Assembly (NCBI GenBank): GCA_017465825.1
Contig: JAFTVI010000035.1
Location: 1-64,000 of the forward strand
Source of the DNA: Clostridia bacterium
GTDB taxonomy: Bacteria > Bacillota > Clostridia > Oscillospirales > Acutalibacteraceae
DNA length: 64,000 nt
Direction: 5' to 3'
Shown here one piece after another: positions 40,293 through 50,089 of the stretch (positions are counted from its first letter, which is position 1; each line of letters begins with the position of its first letter). The notes below the pieces were generated by a model. It was not told the origin of the DNA. It ran no database searches and saw only the letters and a program-made list of their open reading frames with translations. The translations under genes and the position numbers were made by a program.

Positions 40293-40442
40293 TCACCCGT
40301 CTGTTTCGCAATCTGATGGGGGTAATTTATTTTGAATCGCGTGAAAAATTCCTGCGGCGAAATATTCCTTTTTCACTGCTGAGATATATCTTAAAACATA
40401 ATGCCGATATTCCTTGAATTCCTCGGTTTGTTTTTCATCCAT
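40293..40442 (-). CDS. Small hypothetical protein (49 aa), second gene of the RNA-A leader operon
   Basis: A 49-residue ORF starting MDEKQTEEFKEYRHYVL and ending DCETDG. Its ATG (40442) overlaps the end of the preceding small gene in the form ATGGATGA, so the two look coupled. Mostly helical and charged, no membrane segment. I recognise no family. Its TGA is immediately followed by ACAATAATTTA of repeat R10, the same arrangement seen at several certain genes, which supports it being real. Confidence 0.5.
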   Translation of the reverse strand: MDEKQTEEFKEYRHYVLRYISAVKKEYFAAGIFHAIQNKLPPSDCETDG

Positions 40443-40578
40443 ATTCTCTCTGTACTTCACTTAAAAGAAAATCTGCAGCATATGTATTTTTATCGTTGAA
40501 TTTATATTTACTGTTAACAAGGCTTAATTCATATTCTTCCAACGCATCCAGTATGTATTTCTCTGATATTTCTTTCAT
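40435..40578 (-). CDS. Small hypothetical protein (47 aa) behind structured RNA A
   Basis: A 47-residue ORF beginning MKEISEKYILDALEEYELSL and ending LLSEVQREYG. A strong GGAGGAAG lies 7 nt before the ATG at 40578, directly after the T-run of the attenuator-like terminator at 40593-40626. Charged, helical, with no membrane segment or Cys. Unknown family. A longer reading to 40677 would start within the RNA leader and has no ribosome-binding site. Confidence 0.6.
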   Translation of the reverse strand: MKEISEKYILDALEEYELSLVNSKYKFNDKNTYAADFLLSEVQREYG

Positions 40579-40592
40579 TTTATTTCTTCCTC

Positions 40593-40764
40593 CAAAAATA
40601 AAAAATGCGCAGCCGAAGCCACGCATCGAAAAATACATTGCTCCTTTTGTCGCCAAACAAAATCTACATTCACTCATAAGGTATATGCAAATCAGAGCAT
40701 CAGTATTTTTACCGAAATAAAAATACTGATACTTCGCAGTTGATAAAATTTAATTTTGTTTGGC
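40593..40764 (-). ncRNA. Structured RNA leader A (candidate attenuator/riboswitch)
   Basis: Read on the minus strand from the predicted +1. The 5' arm GCCAAACAAAAT (40753-40764) pairs perfectly with ATTTTGTTTGGC (40652-40663) to close the structure. Inside is a perfect 13-bp hairpin with arms ATCAGTATTTTTA and TAAAAATACTGAT (40699-40730) whose apical part reads TTTCGGTAAAA. A linker then leads to a terminator, stem ATGCGTGGC/GCTGCGCAT with TTCG loop (40605-40626) and TTTTTTATTTTT. The next bases are the GGAGG of a small gene. Same layout as RNA B at 47400-47587. Confidence 0.72.
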
Positions 40765-40770
40765 ACGGTT

Positions 40771-40799
40771 AGTATACCACATATTTTGCTTTATTTCAA
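40771..40799 (-). promoter_or_regulatory. Promoter of RNA A
   Basis: Minus strand TTGAAA (40794-40799), 17-nt spacer, TATACT (40771-40776). Six nt separate the -10 box from the first base of the closing helix, exactly as for RNA B. Confidence 0.78.
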
Positions 40800-46471: not shown

Positions 46472-47209
46472 TTATAATCCAAGTAACTGCTTTTTCTTTG
46501 CGTCAAATTCTTCTTGGGTAATCACACCTTTATCAAGCAATTCTTTGTATTTAGTTAACTGCTCCGTTTCATCGACCTTTGCTTCGACTTTAGTTACAAC
46601 ACTTTCCTTTTTTTGTTGTCTTTCGATTAAGAGATTGTTTATTGTTGAATAAATTTCATTAGCATTTTTTATAGCAAGGAAACTGATTTTGCCTGATGAA
46701 GTTGAAACCGAAACACCCTTTAAAAGCTGAATTGTTGCAGTTGCAGAAACAGAGTCAACAGGCAAATCAACTCTTTTACCAAACTGAACTTTACCGTAAA
46801 CTCGTTTATCCGTAACCGTCAACTCATAACTGCGAAGCCATAAGTAAATAAGTCCGCCCAATAAAGCCATAGACACAAACGGTATCAAAGTAGGTAGATA
46901 ATAATAATTATCAAGACTATGAAAAGCGTAGCCTATTGCACTGCCGTAAATAATTTGCGGACAATCCATTTTATCTTCATTATTTAATATTCCGTCATCA
47001 CGTTTATCATCATAATAGTCGTCAGGCCACTTATAACACCGACTATAGTGTTCGTGATTTTCACCGTAGTTTCTATTATAATAAGACATATCATCTAATG
47101 TGAAAATAACAGAGAGCAACACAGAGAGAAAAGCACCAGTGATGACAAAAATTTGAAATAATTTTTTAATATTAAATTTTTTACTTTGAATTAAAACTTT
47201 TTCTTCCAT
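46472..47209 (-). CDS. SHOCT-domain membrane protein
   Basis: A 245-residue protein with two membrane segments (about 17-39 and 103-122), a Tyr/Asp-rich outside loop between them (about 40-95), a PH-like cytosolic domain (LTVTDKRVYGKVQFGKRVDLP) and a C-terminal SHOCT motif (KYKELLDKGVITQEEFDAKK). SHOCT is a short oligomerisation motif found at the ends of many bacterial membrane proteins. It is the second gene behind structured RNA B, 15 nt after the small HTH gene, with AAAAAGGAG at its start. Confidence 0.75.
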   Translation of the reverse strand: MEEKVLIQSKKFNIKKLFQIFVITGAFLSVLLSVIFTLDDMSYYNRNYGENHEHYSRCYKWPDDYYDDKRDDGILNNEDKMDCPQIIYGSAIGYAFHSLDNYYYLPTLIPFVSMALLGGLIYLWLRSYELTVTDKRVYGKVQFGKRVDLPVDSVSATATIQLLKGVSVSTSSGKISFLAIKNANEIYSTINNLLIERQQKKESVVTKVEAKVDETEQLTKYKELLDKGVITQEEFDAKKKQLLGL

Positions 47210-47224
47210 TTCTTAAACTCCTTT

Positions 47225-47386
47225 TTATTTTTCTGGTTTTAATGCATCGACGGGTATTCTCCAGGGGCTACCTTTTTTGTCTTGCTCTGCCCCCGGAATT
47301 TTTCCTTCTCTGCACCATTGTGTAATTTGGGATTGTTTGCATTCCCATATTTCAGCCATTGCTTTTGTGCCGATAAAATCCCCCAT
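47225..47386 (-). CDS. Small helix-turn-helix protein (53 aa) behind structured RNA B
   Basis: A 53-residue protein, MGDFIGTKAMAEIWECKQSQ followed by ITQWCREGKIPGAEQDKKG and SPWRIPVDALKPEK. This is the excisionase/MerR-like single HTH seen in many small clostridial proteins; WCREGKIPGA and PWRIP are typical. It probably binds DNA. AGGAGG stands 4 nt before the ATG at 47386 and just after the T-run of the RNA B terminator, so expression should depend on read-through. Confidence 0.75.
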   Translation of the reverse strand: MGDFIGTKAMAEIWECKQSQITQWCREGKIPGAEQDKKGSPWRIPVDALKPEK

Positions 47387-47399
47387 ATCTACCTCCTAA

Positions 47400-47587
47400 A
47401 AATAAAAAAAGTGTGTGCAAACCGAAGTTGTGCACACACTGAAAAACACAAACTTCGATTAGCTACCACACTATAATTTCTTTTCTCACAAAAAAGGGAA
47501 CGCGAAATTACGAAGTTCGTGCTTTTACCGAAAGATAAAAACACTAACCCCTTTGTGAGAAAAAACAATATTAAATTATAGTGTGGT
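47400..47587 (-). ncRNA. Structured RNA leader B (candidate attenuator/riboswitch)
   Basis: Minus strand. 5' arm ACCACACTATAATTT (47573-47587) pairs perfectly with AAATTATAGTGTGGT (47465-47479). A second helix TTTTCTCACAAA with its complement (47481-47564 region) and a GTG...TTTTA/TAAAA...CAC hairpin (47519-47544) with TTTCGGTAAAA follow. The linker CGAAGTTTGTG can pair with CACAACTTCG in the terminator, a possible antiterminator. Terminator stem AGTGTGTGCA/TGCACACACT (47410-47440), T-run TTTTTTTATTTTT, then AGGAGG of the HTH gene. Confidence 0.75.
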
Positions 47588-47593
47588 GCATTC

Positions 47594-47622
47594 AGTATAA
47601 CACATTAAAATTCATACTTCAA
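47594..47622 (-). promoter_or_regulatory. Promoter of RNA B
   Basis: Minus strand TTGAAG (47617-47622), 17-nt spacer, TATACT (47594-47599), 6 nt before the closing helix. Identical geometry to the promoter of RNA A. Confidence 0.78.
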
Positions 47623-48910: not shown

Positions 48911-50089
48911 TTAAGTTTTGGATATGTAAGGCTGTCCGGATATTTGCAAAGCGAAAATAAGACGAACTAACTTTTTAGCAGCGTGAGAGATTGCAACGTT
49001 GTAATGCTTTCCCTCTGAACGCTTTTTAGCAAGATAGTCGGCGAATACGGGATTCCAATTACAAACAAATTTGGTTGCATTGAAAAGTGCATAACGCAAA
49101 TAACGAGAACCACGTTTCTCCATATGAGCATAGCAATTATTGAGTTGTCCTGATTGATATGTAGACGGAGAAAGTCCTGCAAAAGCTAAGATTTTGTCAG
49201 GTGAATCGAAGTTATTAAAATCACCGATTTCAGCAATAATCATAGCTGCCATATTCATTCCGATACCTGGAATTGTGGTGATAGGAGAATTTATCTTGTC
49301 CATTAAGGCTTTGATTTCATGTTCAATTTCATTAATCTCGGCATCAAATTCTTTTATGAGTTTTATGGTGTGTTTAAGTTCCAATGCTTTAGCAGGCATA
49401 TATGTGCCGATAGAATTACGAGCTGCTTCACGTATTTGAATGGCTTTATCACGGTCATAACGACCTTTAGAAGCCGTGTGAAGCAAATTTGTAAGGCGTG
49501 TAAGATGAACATCGGCAATCTGCTTTGCACTTGGAAATTCATACAGAAGTGCATAAGCAGAAGCTGTATGCAGAGTTGGAAACAGATTTTCCAATTCAGG
49601 AAAAAGGATATTAATGAGCCTTGAAACCGAAGTTTTTAACTTTGCTCTTTCAGAAACTTTATCAAATTTGTATCTTGTTAGTGACTTTAGTTCTGAATTG
49701 TGGTATGCTATGTTTGTGTAGGGCTTGAGGTCCACATCAGACATTAGCATAGAAGCAATAGTTCTTGCATCTACCTTATCCGTTTTCGTCTTTCTAAGGC
49801 TTAGACTTTTTCTGTAAAGATTTGTATGTAACGGATTGATAACATAGGTCGGCAAACCATTATCAAGGAGAAAACCAAGAAGATTGTAACTGTAATGTCC
49901 GGTTGCCTCAAGTCCTACTTTTATTTTGCCGCCGTCAATACCTGTACAGGTATTGATTGTTTGAAGAAGATATTCAAATCCTTCTTTACTGTTCTGAATA
50001 GTAAAGACATCAGCACGGACTTCACCTTCTGAGCTTATGATGAAGCAATCATGTTTATCTTTTGCAACATCAATTCCAACAAAAACCAT
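48911..50089 (-). CDS. IS110-family transposase (DEDD recombinase)
   Basis: A 392-residue IS110 recombinase. The N-terminal RuvC-like DEDD domain shows VFVGIDVAKDKHDCFI (Asp), VGLEATGHYSYNL (Glu) and KTKTDKVDARTIA (two Asp). The C-terminal Tnp_20 domain has TIPGIGMNMAAMIIAEIGD, FAGLSPSTYQSGQ and the Ser-containing RGSRYLRYALFNAT. It acts with a bridge RNA that pairs with donor and target DNA. Full length with no frameshift, so probably active. Strong CGGAGG before ATG 50089. Confidence 0.95.
   Translation of the reverse strand: MVFVGIDVAKDKHDCFIISSEGEVRADVFTIQNSKEGFEYLLQTINTCTGIDGGKIKVGLEATGHYSYNLLGFLLDNGLPTYVINPLHTNLYRKSLSLRKTKTDKVDARTIASMLMSDVDLKPYTNIAYHNSELKSLTRYKFDKVSERAKLKTSVSRLINILFPELENLFPTLHTASAYALLYEFPSAKQIADVHLTRLTNLLHTASKGRYDRDKAIQIREAARNSIGTYMPAKALELKHTIKLIKEFDAEINEIEHEIKALMDKINSPITTIPGIGMNMAAMIIAEIGDFNNFDSPDKILAFAGLSPSTYQSGQLNNCYAHMEKRGSRYLRYALFNATKFVCNWNPVFADYLAKKRSEGKHYNVAISHAAKKLVRLIFALQISGQPYISKT

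Follow-up and report, generated by a model that had tools for sequence, protein, structure and literature searches.

Introduction

In transcriptional riboswitches such as preQ1, fluoride/crcB, and ZTP/pfl, whose classes are represented in Rfam, terminator formation ahead of the gene is governed by a pseudoknot. T-box leaders depend on the competition between a terminator and an antiterminator in the 5' leaders of Firmicutes, and the RNAs of type III toxin-antitoxin systems, such as ToxI, lie in the order of promoter, structured RNA, terminator, and gene. Related attenuator-like terminators located before totally unrelated genes are described in the parts of Naville and Gautheret (2010, PMC2965389) that deal with "mobile attenuators". 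Here, we analyzed a 64,000-nucleotide (nt) stretch of a Clostridia bacterium of the family Acutalibacteraceae (the window; positions 1 to 64,000 of contig JAFTVI010000035.1, assembly GCA_017465825.1), in which two minus-strand loci carry a structured leader RNA. Read from the promoter through the start of a small open reading frame (ORF), they span 40799-40576 (copy A) and 47622-47384 (copy B). We are fairly confident that each full copy of this RNA acts as a transcription attenuator, usually with its own promoter, in which the downstream gene would be off when a pseudoknot is formed and on when the pseudoknot is blocked.

The unit is ordered as promoter, long closing helix P1, P2, hairpin P3, linker, and terminator. 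In the proposed mechanism, RNA polymerase would start at or beside the foot of P1, and P1, P2, and the hairpin P3 would fold first. The linker, which follows P1, would then have two mutually exclusive partners, either the P3 3' strand together with the adjoining bulge J3 or, in the nascent terminator, the loop and the arm on its 5' side. If the linker is captured by the pseudoknot, the terminator would form and transcription would stop ahead of the gene. If P3/J3 is kept from the linker, the linker would bind the terminator arm, and transcription would read through into a gene led by a Shine-Dalgarno (SD) sequence, mostly 10-30 nt further on. Comparison of the copies supports the promoter, the place of the gene, and the three pairings with the competition between them; we infer that the pseudoknot state is the off state, that the polymerase is still transcribing when the switch is made, and that there is a signal that acts on P1-P3/J3.

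The linker has two competing partners

A simple pattern search revealed a third copy in the genome that holds the window (the home genome) and matches in the genomes of 17 of 60 relatives; among the latter, two loci (L011 and L014) were recognized by eye as the RNA, and the rest were taken for chance. The covariance model R1 was trained on five copies (A, B, the third home copy, L011, and L014), and its structure was limited to P1, P3, and the terminator, without any pairs of the pseudoknot or the antiterminator. Two copy sets were then compared. Set A3 comprised 93 matches from 82 sources, namely the best listed matches from a draw of genomes of the same family plus the window and home-genome copies, and contained the five training copies, one 3' remnant, and one partial match. 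Set A5 comprised 43 matches from 40 loci, which were the best listed matches from the order and class draws and were all outside the home genome's family. Anchoring on the P3 loop was achieved for 88/93 copies in A3 and 41/43 in A5.

The duplex energies of all segment pairs were calculated once with each copy's own partners and once with partners permuted inside strata of P1 subtype. In this segment map, the stratified z was -22 for P2, -16.6 for P1, -13 for the terminator, and -9.0 for P3. In addition, the P3 3' strand scored z -9.2 with the U-rich end of the linker, and J3 scored z -7.3 with the linker's first half. Since the P3 3' strand pairs both in P3 and with the linker, it appears to have two partners. 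Weaker rows were obtained for P3_5-J3 (-5.8), J3-linkB (-5.4), and linkA-T3 (-4.4). The rows P1_5/P1_3+L (z -9.6) and P1_3/P1_3+L (z -7.0) were set aside as overlapping windows, and so was P3_5/P2_3 (z -8.3), which we attributed to P2 reaching into the P3_5 window.

The pseudoknot between the linker and the P3 3' strand plus J3 had a mean length of 15.0 base pairs (bp). The duplex energy in the anchored A3 copies was -16.31 kcal/mol with their own partners, compared to -12.07 kcal/mol with permuted partners and -6.20 kcal/mol for shuffled strands, and 0 of 10,000 permutations were as low. The A5 copies gave -16.14 kcal/mol against -12.90 kcal/mol when permuted (0/5000 as low). Furthermore, the pseudoknot cells with double changes numbered 84, above the 42.6 of the shuffles (0/500). 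In copies A-E, a sequence nearly the same as the 5' strand of P3 was seen in the linker (GUAUUUUU/GUGUUUUU). The A-U pairs of the P3-linker U-run are nearly invariant family-wide, and the flanking pairs vary. A U-A-U triple helix of P3 and the linker was also considered and was rejected by reasoning only, its strand polarity being unsuitable.

The linker's second partner lies in the terminator, in its 5' arm and loop, and this pairing would give an antiterminator of about 10 bp. The complementarity was first noticed in A3, and A5 served as the check set. The antiterminator energy in A3 was -11.75 kcal/mol for a copy's own partners, -9.78 for permuted partners, and -5.12 for shuffled ones, with 0/5000 permutations as low; the corresponding values in A5 (41/43 anchored) were -13.92, -12.01, and -5.78 kcal/mol (0/5000). 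When the partners were permuted within J3 classes only, z was -8.1. Paired cells amounted to 86.7% versus 84.5% in shuffles (0/500), and the covariation score was 0.270 versus 0.245 (1/500). Slid controls were far lower for both pairings, with at most 60.3% of the antiterminator cells and at most 61.2% of the pseudoknot cells paired, compared to 86.7%. A pairing of the P1 3' strand with the terminator 3' strand was also tried as the antiterminator (-9.6 versus -5.4 kcal/mol shuffled). Its stratified z was -2.8; therefore, this barely copy-specific pair was dropped for that of the linker with the terminator arm (z -4.9 in the segment map and 0/5000 in the permutation tests).

The two pairings draw on the same bases. 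The pseudoknot also uses 85% of the antiterminator's linker bases, and 72% of the bases that pair in the terminator arm are claimed by the antiterminator. When the segments were folded as hairpins, the antiterminator and the terminator were balanced, at -12.0 versus -12.2 kcal/mol in A3 and -14.4 versus -13.5 kcal/mol in A5. Two marks of a transcription attenuator are readable in the sequence, namely an intrinsic terminator between promoter and gene and a predicted alternative antiterminator that would exclude it, the latter being weak on double changes.

Each copy usually lies between a promoter and a gene

In 72/93 copies of A3 and 39/43 copies of A5, the stretch of approximately 15 nt before P1 contained a -10-like box matching at least 5/6 positions, compared to 8.9% and 9.4% in the controls. 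At the other end, 61/91 copies (the A3 copies with sufficient flank) were followed by an SD-led ORF of at least 30 amino acids (aa) starting no more than 35 nt past the match, compared to 7.2% of random positions. A second script, with a limit of 38 nt, counted 63/91 in A3 and 28/43 in A5. Moreover, 60 of the 73 picked ORFs begin 10-29 nt beyond the match. Since the ORF starts so near the end of the match, little space is left for a second promoter; since it lies directly behind the terminator, the gene would depend on read-through. No SD-led ORF was found within 120 nt of 18/91 copies, some of which precede another copy (L082 and L129).

The downstream genes showed no common metabolic or transport theme by Pfam (67 A3 and 33 A5 proteins). 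Among the 67 A3 proteins, encoded by 66 of the 73 ORFs and the second gene behind copy B, LRR_5 was the top family (6/67), followed by SHOCT (4/67) and by EcoRI_methylase, DUF6273, HTH_3, MazE_antitoxin, and DUF6809 (2/67 each), out of 41 families of which 25 were listed. For 33 of the 35 A5 ORFs, Cu_amine_oxidN1 was found three times and zinc-ribbon families twice each, and the rest were singles (25 families, all listed). A crude scan indicated a hydrophobic N terminus in 40/89 close ORFs. A shared partner gene was not apparent either, as even the most widespread family was present beside 8 of the 82 sources at most when ORFs of at least 70 aa within 6.5 kb were scanned; nine families occurred in at least 4 neighbourhoods.

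Several copies in the home genome precede small proteins that are alike by eye. At three loci of genome G000 (L097, L100, and L105), the leader copies precede near-identical 95-aa proteins, and the one tested matched DUF6809 below the cut-off; this suggests that the leader was duplicated there along with its gene. The small gene behind the tandem array of L082 showed similarity just below the cut-off to the YspA-type SLOG and DprA families.

Copies A and B in the window

Both minus-strand copies were read directly, and their secondary structure was predicted by RNAfold, which gave the closing helix, the central hairpin, and the terminator in each. In copy A, the -35 box TTGAAA (40794..40799) and the -10 box TATACT (40771..40776) are separated by a 17-nt spacer, and 6 nt lie between the -10 box and a perfect 12-bp closing helix (GCCAAACAAAAT/ATTTTGTTTGGC). 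In copy B, the boxes are TTGAAG (47617..47622) and TATACT (47594..47599), again with a spacer of 17 nt, and 6 nt lead to a perfect 15-bp closing helix (ACCACACTATAATTT/AAATTATAGTGTGGT). The promoter and the 6-nt distance described in the first-pass annotation were exact in both copies. So were its central hairpin, which carries TTTCGGTAAAA at the tip in A and B, its linker motif, which reads GT[A/G]TTTTTC here, and its terminator with C-TTCG-G and a T-rich tail containing ATTTTT, followed by GGAGG and a small ORF.

The complete structured RNA of copy A, as matched by the covariance model, spans 40597..40767. The 5' strand of P1 lies at 40753..40766 and its 3' strand, with a one-base bulge (GGC-G-AC), at 40649..40663. 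The hairpin P3, with the tip UUUCGGUAAAA, occupies 40703..40726, and its 3' strand together with the J3 bulge (40694..40710) is the linker's pseudoknot partner according to the family-wide tests. The linker (GGAGCAAUGUAUUUUU, 40629..40644) would pair either with P3/J3 or, as the antiterminator, with the terminator arm. The antiterminator hairpin (40615..40644; 40632-40644 with 40615-40627) has 12 bp with one internal mismatch and -11.7 kcal/mol in a segment fold, and the intrinsic terminator lies at 40600..40626. With its SD sequence GGAGG at 40589-40593, the first downstream ORF (40435..40578) encodes 47 aa.

For copy B, the corresponding match spans 47405..47590. P1 is formed by 47573..47589 and 47462..47479, the latter with a bulge (GGU-A-GC), and the hairpin P3 lies at 47519..47544. 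The P3 3' strand plus J3 (AAAAGCACGAACUUCG, 47511..47526) is the pseudoknot strand, and the linker is CGAAGUUUGUGUUUUU (47442..47457). The predicted antiterminator hairpin (47423..47457) pairs CGAAGUU-U-GUG with CACAACUUCG, at -8.1 kcal/mol when the truncated segment was folded, and the intrinsic terminator lies at 47404..47440. The first downstream gene (47225..47386), preceded by AGGAGG as its SD sequence, encodes a 53-aa protein with an HTH_17 domain. The second (46472..47209) encodes a protein with a C-terminal SHOCT domain, which by eye is a membrane protein. That the two downstream gene sets are unrelated, as first noted, also held, since the first proteins are dissimilar by eye and only that of B had a Pfam match.

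The gene behind copy A (40293-40578, minus strand) consists of two ORFs of 47 aa and 55 aa. The closest copy to A in its own genome (C28:197029-197203) precedes one unbroken ORF of 90 aa, relative to which the frame behind A is broken; the leader of copy A is one that outlives what reads as a decaying gene. Approximately 1.3 kb upstream of copy B, the window holds a full-length-looking ORF for an IS110-family transposase (48911-50089, minus strand; DEDD_Tnp_IS110 and Transposase_20).

Size and distribution of the family

The first-pass annotation had taken A and B for a two-copy family, which proved too small. The R1 search of the home genome gave 20 matches at E<=10, of which 15 were at E<=1e-4, and one of these 15 was a 3' remnant. 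R1 matched in 113/300 genomes of the family draw (E<=0.01), 99/295 of the order draw, and 74/291 of the class draw (both E<=1e-4), and the resemblance of A and B thus goes beyond chance. The three draws overlap, the wider ones containing some genomes of the narrower ones. With nine candidates scored per genome in these draws, several genomes showed at least nine matches. In the phylum draw, for which 7 candidates were scored per genome, a match was found in 1/398 genomes, and this one was the home genome; the negatives of that draw included no fewer than 14 genomes belonging to the family, order, or class. The phylum draw is thus a fair false-positive control, and it suggests, short of proof, that the range of the RNA ends at class level.

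A strict 3' pattern matched at least 120 stretches in genome contigs. By record titles only, the 80 listed were from Clostridia, Oscillospiraceae, Ruminococcaceae, Ruminococcus, Ruminiclostridium, and similar taxa, many from ruminant gut. The same pattern, which covers only part of the family, gave 0 matches in the IMG/VR viral contigs. The copies may also stand in series: at L082:6627-7575 (minus strand, G319:C26), five RNA matches lie in tandem on one strand, the fifth being partial, and at L129 a copy is likewise followed by another copy. Just past the terminators of L104 and L101, there are apparent degenerate 3' fragments of an oppositely oriented unit (GGCGACAGAGGAGCTGC...), and these partial copies look as if they were scattering on their own.

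Weighing the attenuator against other explanations

Several observations weigh against the attenuator as proposed. The row of the linker with the terminator arm was weaker than the leading ones in the segment map (z -4.9). The antiterminator showed few double changes, in 5 pairs versus 4.1 in shuffles (175/500) and in 13 cells versus 8.3 (42/500), so that its support comes mainly from one-sided changes and the permutation test. For the pseudoknot, both the pairs with double changes (9 versus 8.1; 180/500) and the further pair types (26 versus 25.2; 216/500) stayed at the shuffle level. These pseudoknot pairs were counted in a single alignment with the register of the GCUCU subtype, from which the ACUUC subtype is off by at least one column, and unpaired cells are therefore overcounted. 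By simple addition without loop penalties, the P3 hairpin plus a short pseudoknot exceeded the long pseudoknot in stability by 4.2 kcal/mol (standard deviation 3.6), so that the strand exchange may go only part of the way. The candidate signal site, an AAUA-like motif in J1/2, was present in 75/93 and 36/43 copies, and also in 48% and 43% of the shuffles. Moreover, the permutation tests leave the relatedness of the copies in place, and, the home genome aside, both copy sets consist of those listed matches that scored best. Lastly, an SD-led ORF within 35 nt is missing behind 30/91 copies, and some of these precede another copy.

The last point also speaks for the main rival, a stand-alone small RNA gene of approximately 170 nt with a 5' end sealed by P1, a pseudoknot, and an intrinsic terminator, which would act in trans and leave the genes behind it to live on constant leak-through. 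The -10-like box before most copies (72/93 and 39/43) with a terminator after them, and the tandem units with no gene between, such as the five matches (one partial) in L082, are what such a gene would show. Nevertheless, a stand-alone RNA would have no need for an antiterminator whose pairing is copy-specific and competes with the pseudoknot, and the coupling to SD-led ORFs is tight (63/91 and 28/43). We thus regard this explanation as unlikely, although it is the one to be taken most seriously.

It is considerably less probable that the units are mobile repeats of the "mobile attenuator" kind, i.e., terminator-bearing fragments of a mobile element that landed before genes and regulate little. 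Such repeats would stem from an insertion sequence or a prophage, of which they would be the 3' end. The many copies, their patchy distribution, the tandem copies, the one 3' remnant, and the unrelated downstream genes would fit such repeats. However, no transposase was seen by eye among the nine families found in at least 4 neighbourhoods, the internal helices co-vary instead of staying identical, and the unit has its own promoter.

A leader peptide, by which the ribosome would mediate the attenuation, is very improbable. GGAG-NN-ATG occurs somewhere in the RNA in 43/135 copies, but SD-led short ORFs inside the RNA were no more frequent than in shuffles (45/135 versus 45.8), and the predicted 5' end at P1 leaves no space for an SD sequence before P1. 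We can hardly credit that the RNA is the antitoxin in a type III toxin-antitoxin system, in which promoter, RNA, and terminator would precede a toxin gene, since, in spite of the same part order and the tandem RNA units at some loci, the downstream ORFs are diverse (LRR, SHOCT, HTH, methylase, and Cu_amine_oxidN1) and no ToxN-type family is among those listed (25/41 and 25/25 families).

Two protein-dependent routes to antitermination were also followed. For LoaP, 0/60 relatives had a match above the NF033641 cut-off and 56/60 had one below it, 25/60 carrying the RNA; 0/14 controls passed, so that this search had no positive control. ANTAR-dependent antitermination was rejected, as no ANTAR match was found in 14 of the 25 RNA-carrying relatives, the home genome included; overall, 36/60 relatives had one.

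The attenuator put forward in the first-pass annotation has thus gained support from the copy-specific antiterminator, the competing pseudoknot, the position before SD-led ORFs, and the lack of an Rfam match described below.

Comparison with known systems

The first-pass annotation had matched the leaders to no riboswitch, and the Rfam scan it proposed bore this out for the window copies, as did a scan of 20 homologous loci. With Rfam release 15 (4227 models, gathering threshold), the only match in the window was a tRNA located elsewhere, and the 20 homologous loci gave only tRNAs and a tmRNA. In E-value mode, L001-L003 gave 13 matches up to E 10, all under the gathering scores. A description of the family was not found in the open-access literature searched; the family may sit unnamed among the 3161 candidates in the supplementary tables of PMC8040213.

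In a broader reading, to which we give an even chance, these copies would belong to a so far undescribed, class-wide clostridial family of signal-sensing leader RNAs that travels with its own promoter and places unrelated accessory genes under one ligand or RNA-binding factor, which would free P3/J3 from the linker or lock it there. If this is true, the accessory genes number dozens and encode surface proteins, membrane proteins, small helical proteins, and methylases. The RNA is carried by a quarter (class, 74/291) to a third (order, 99/295) of the drawn genomes, often in multiple copies, and such a reading predicts a hidden regulon of unrelated, mostly uncharacterized genes of gut and rumen bacteria under one shared switch.

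Compared with the preQ1, fluoride/crcB, and ZTP/pfl riboswitches, the clostridial RNA is alike in that a pseudoknot would decide terminator formation, and it differs in having no Rfam match and no shared metabolic theme downstream. It shares with the T-box leaders the competition between terminator and antiterminator in a 5' leader; however, it has no Rfam match, and no amino-acid gene family is among the downstream families listed. The order of its parts is the same as that of RNAs such as ToxI (ToxI is treated in PMC8040213), whereas no ToxN-like family was listed, the 100 scanned downstream proteins are mostly unrelated, and the clostridial RNA has a predicted antiterminator. The nearest published notion is that of the mobile attenuators, as far as the relevant parts of PMC2965389 describe them, since the clostridial RNA also precedes unrelated genes. 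Unlike the elements described there, the clostridial unit generally brings a promoter of its own and combines a long structured domain with a pseudoknot and an antiterminator that compete, and no transposase family was seen to recur beside it. The contest of terminator and antiterminator with a pseudoknot as the referee is already known, and what appears to be new is this RNA family and the two partners that would compete for its linker.
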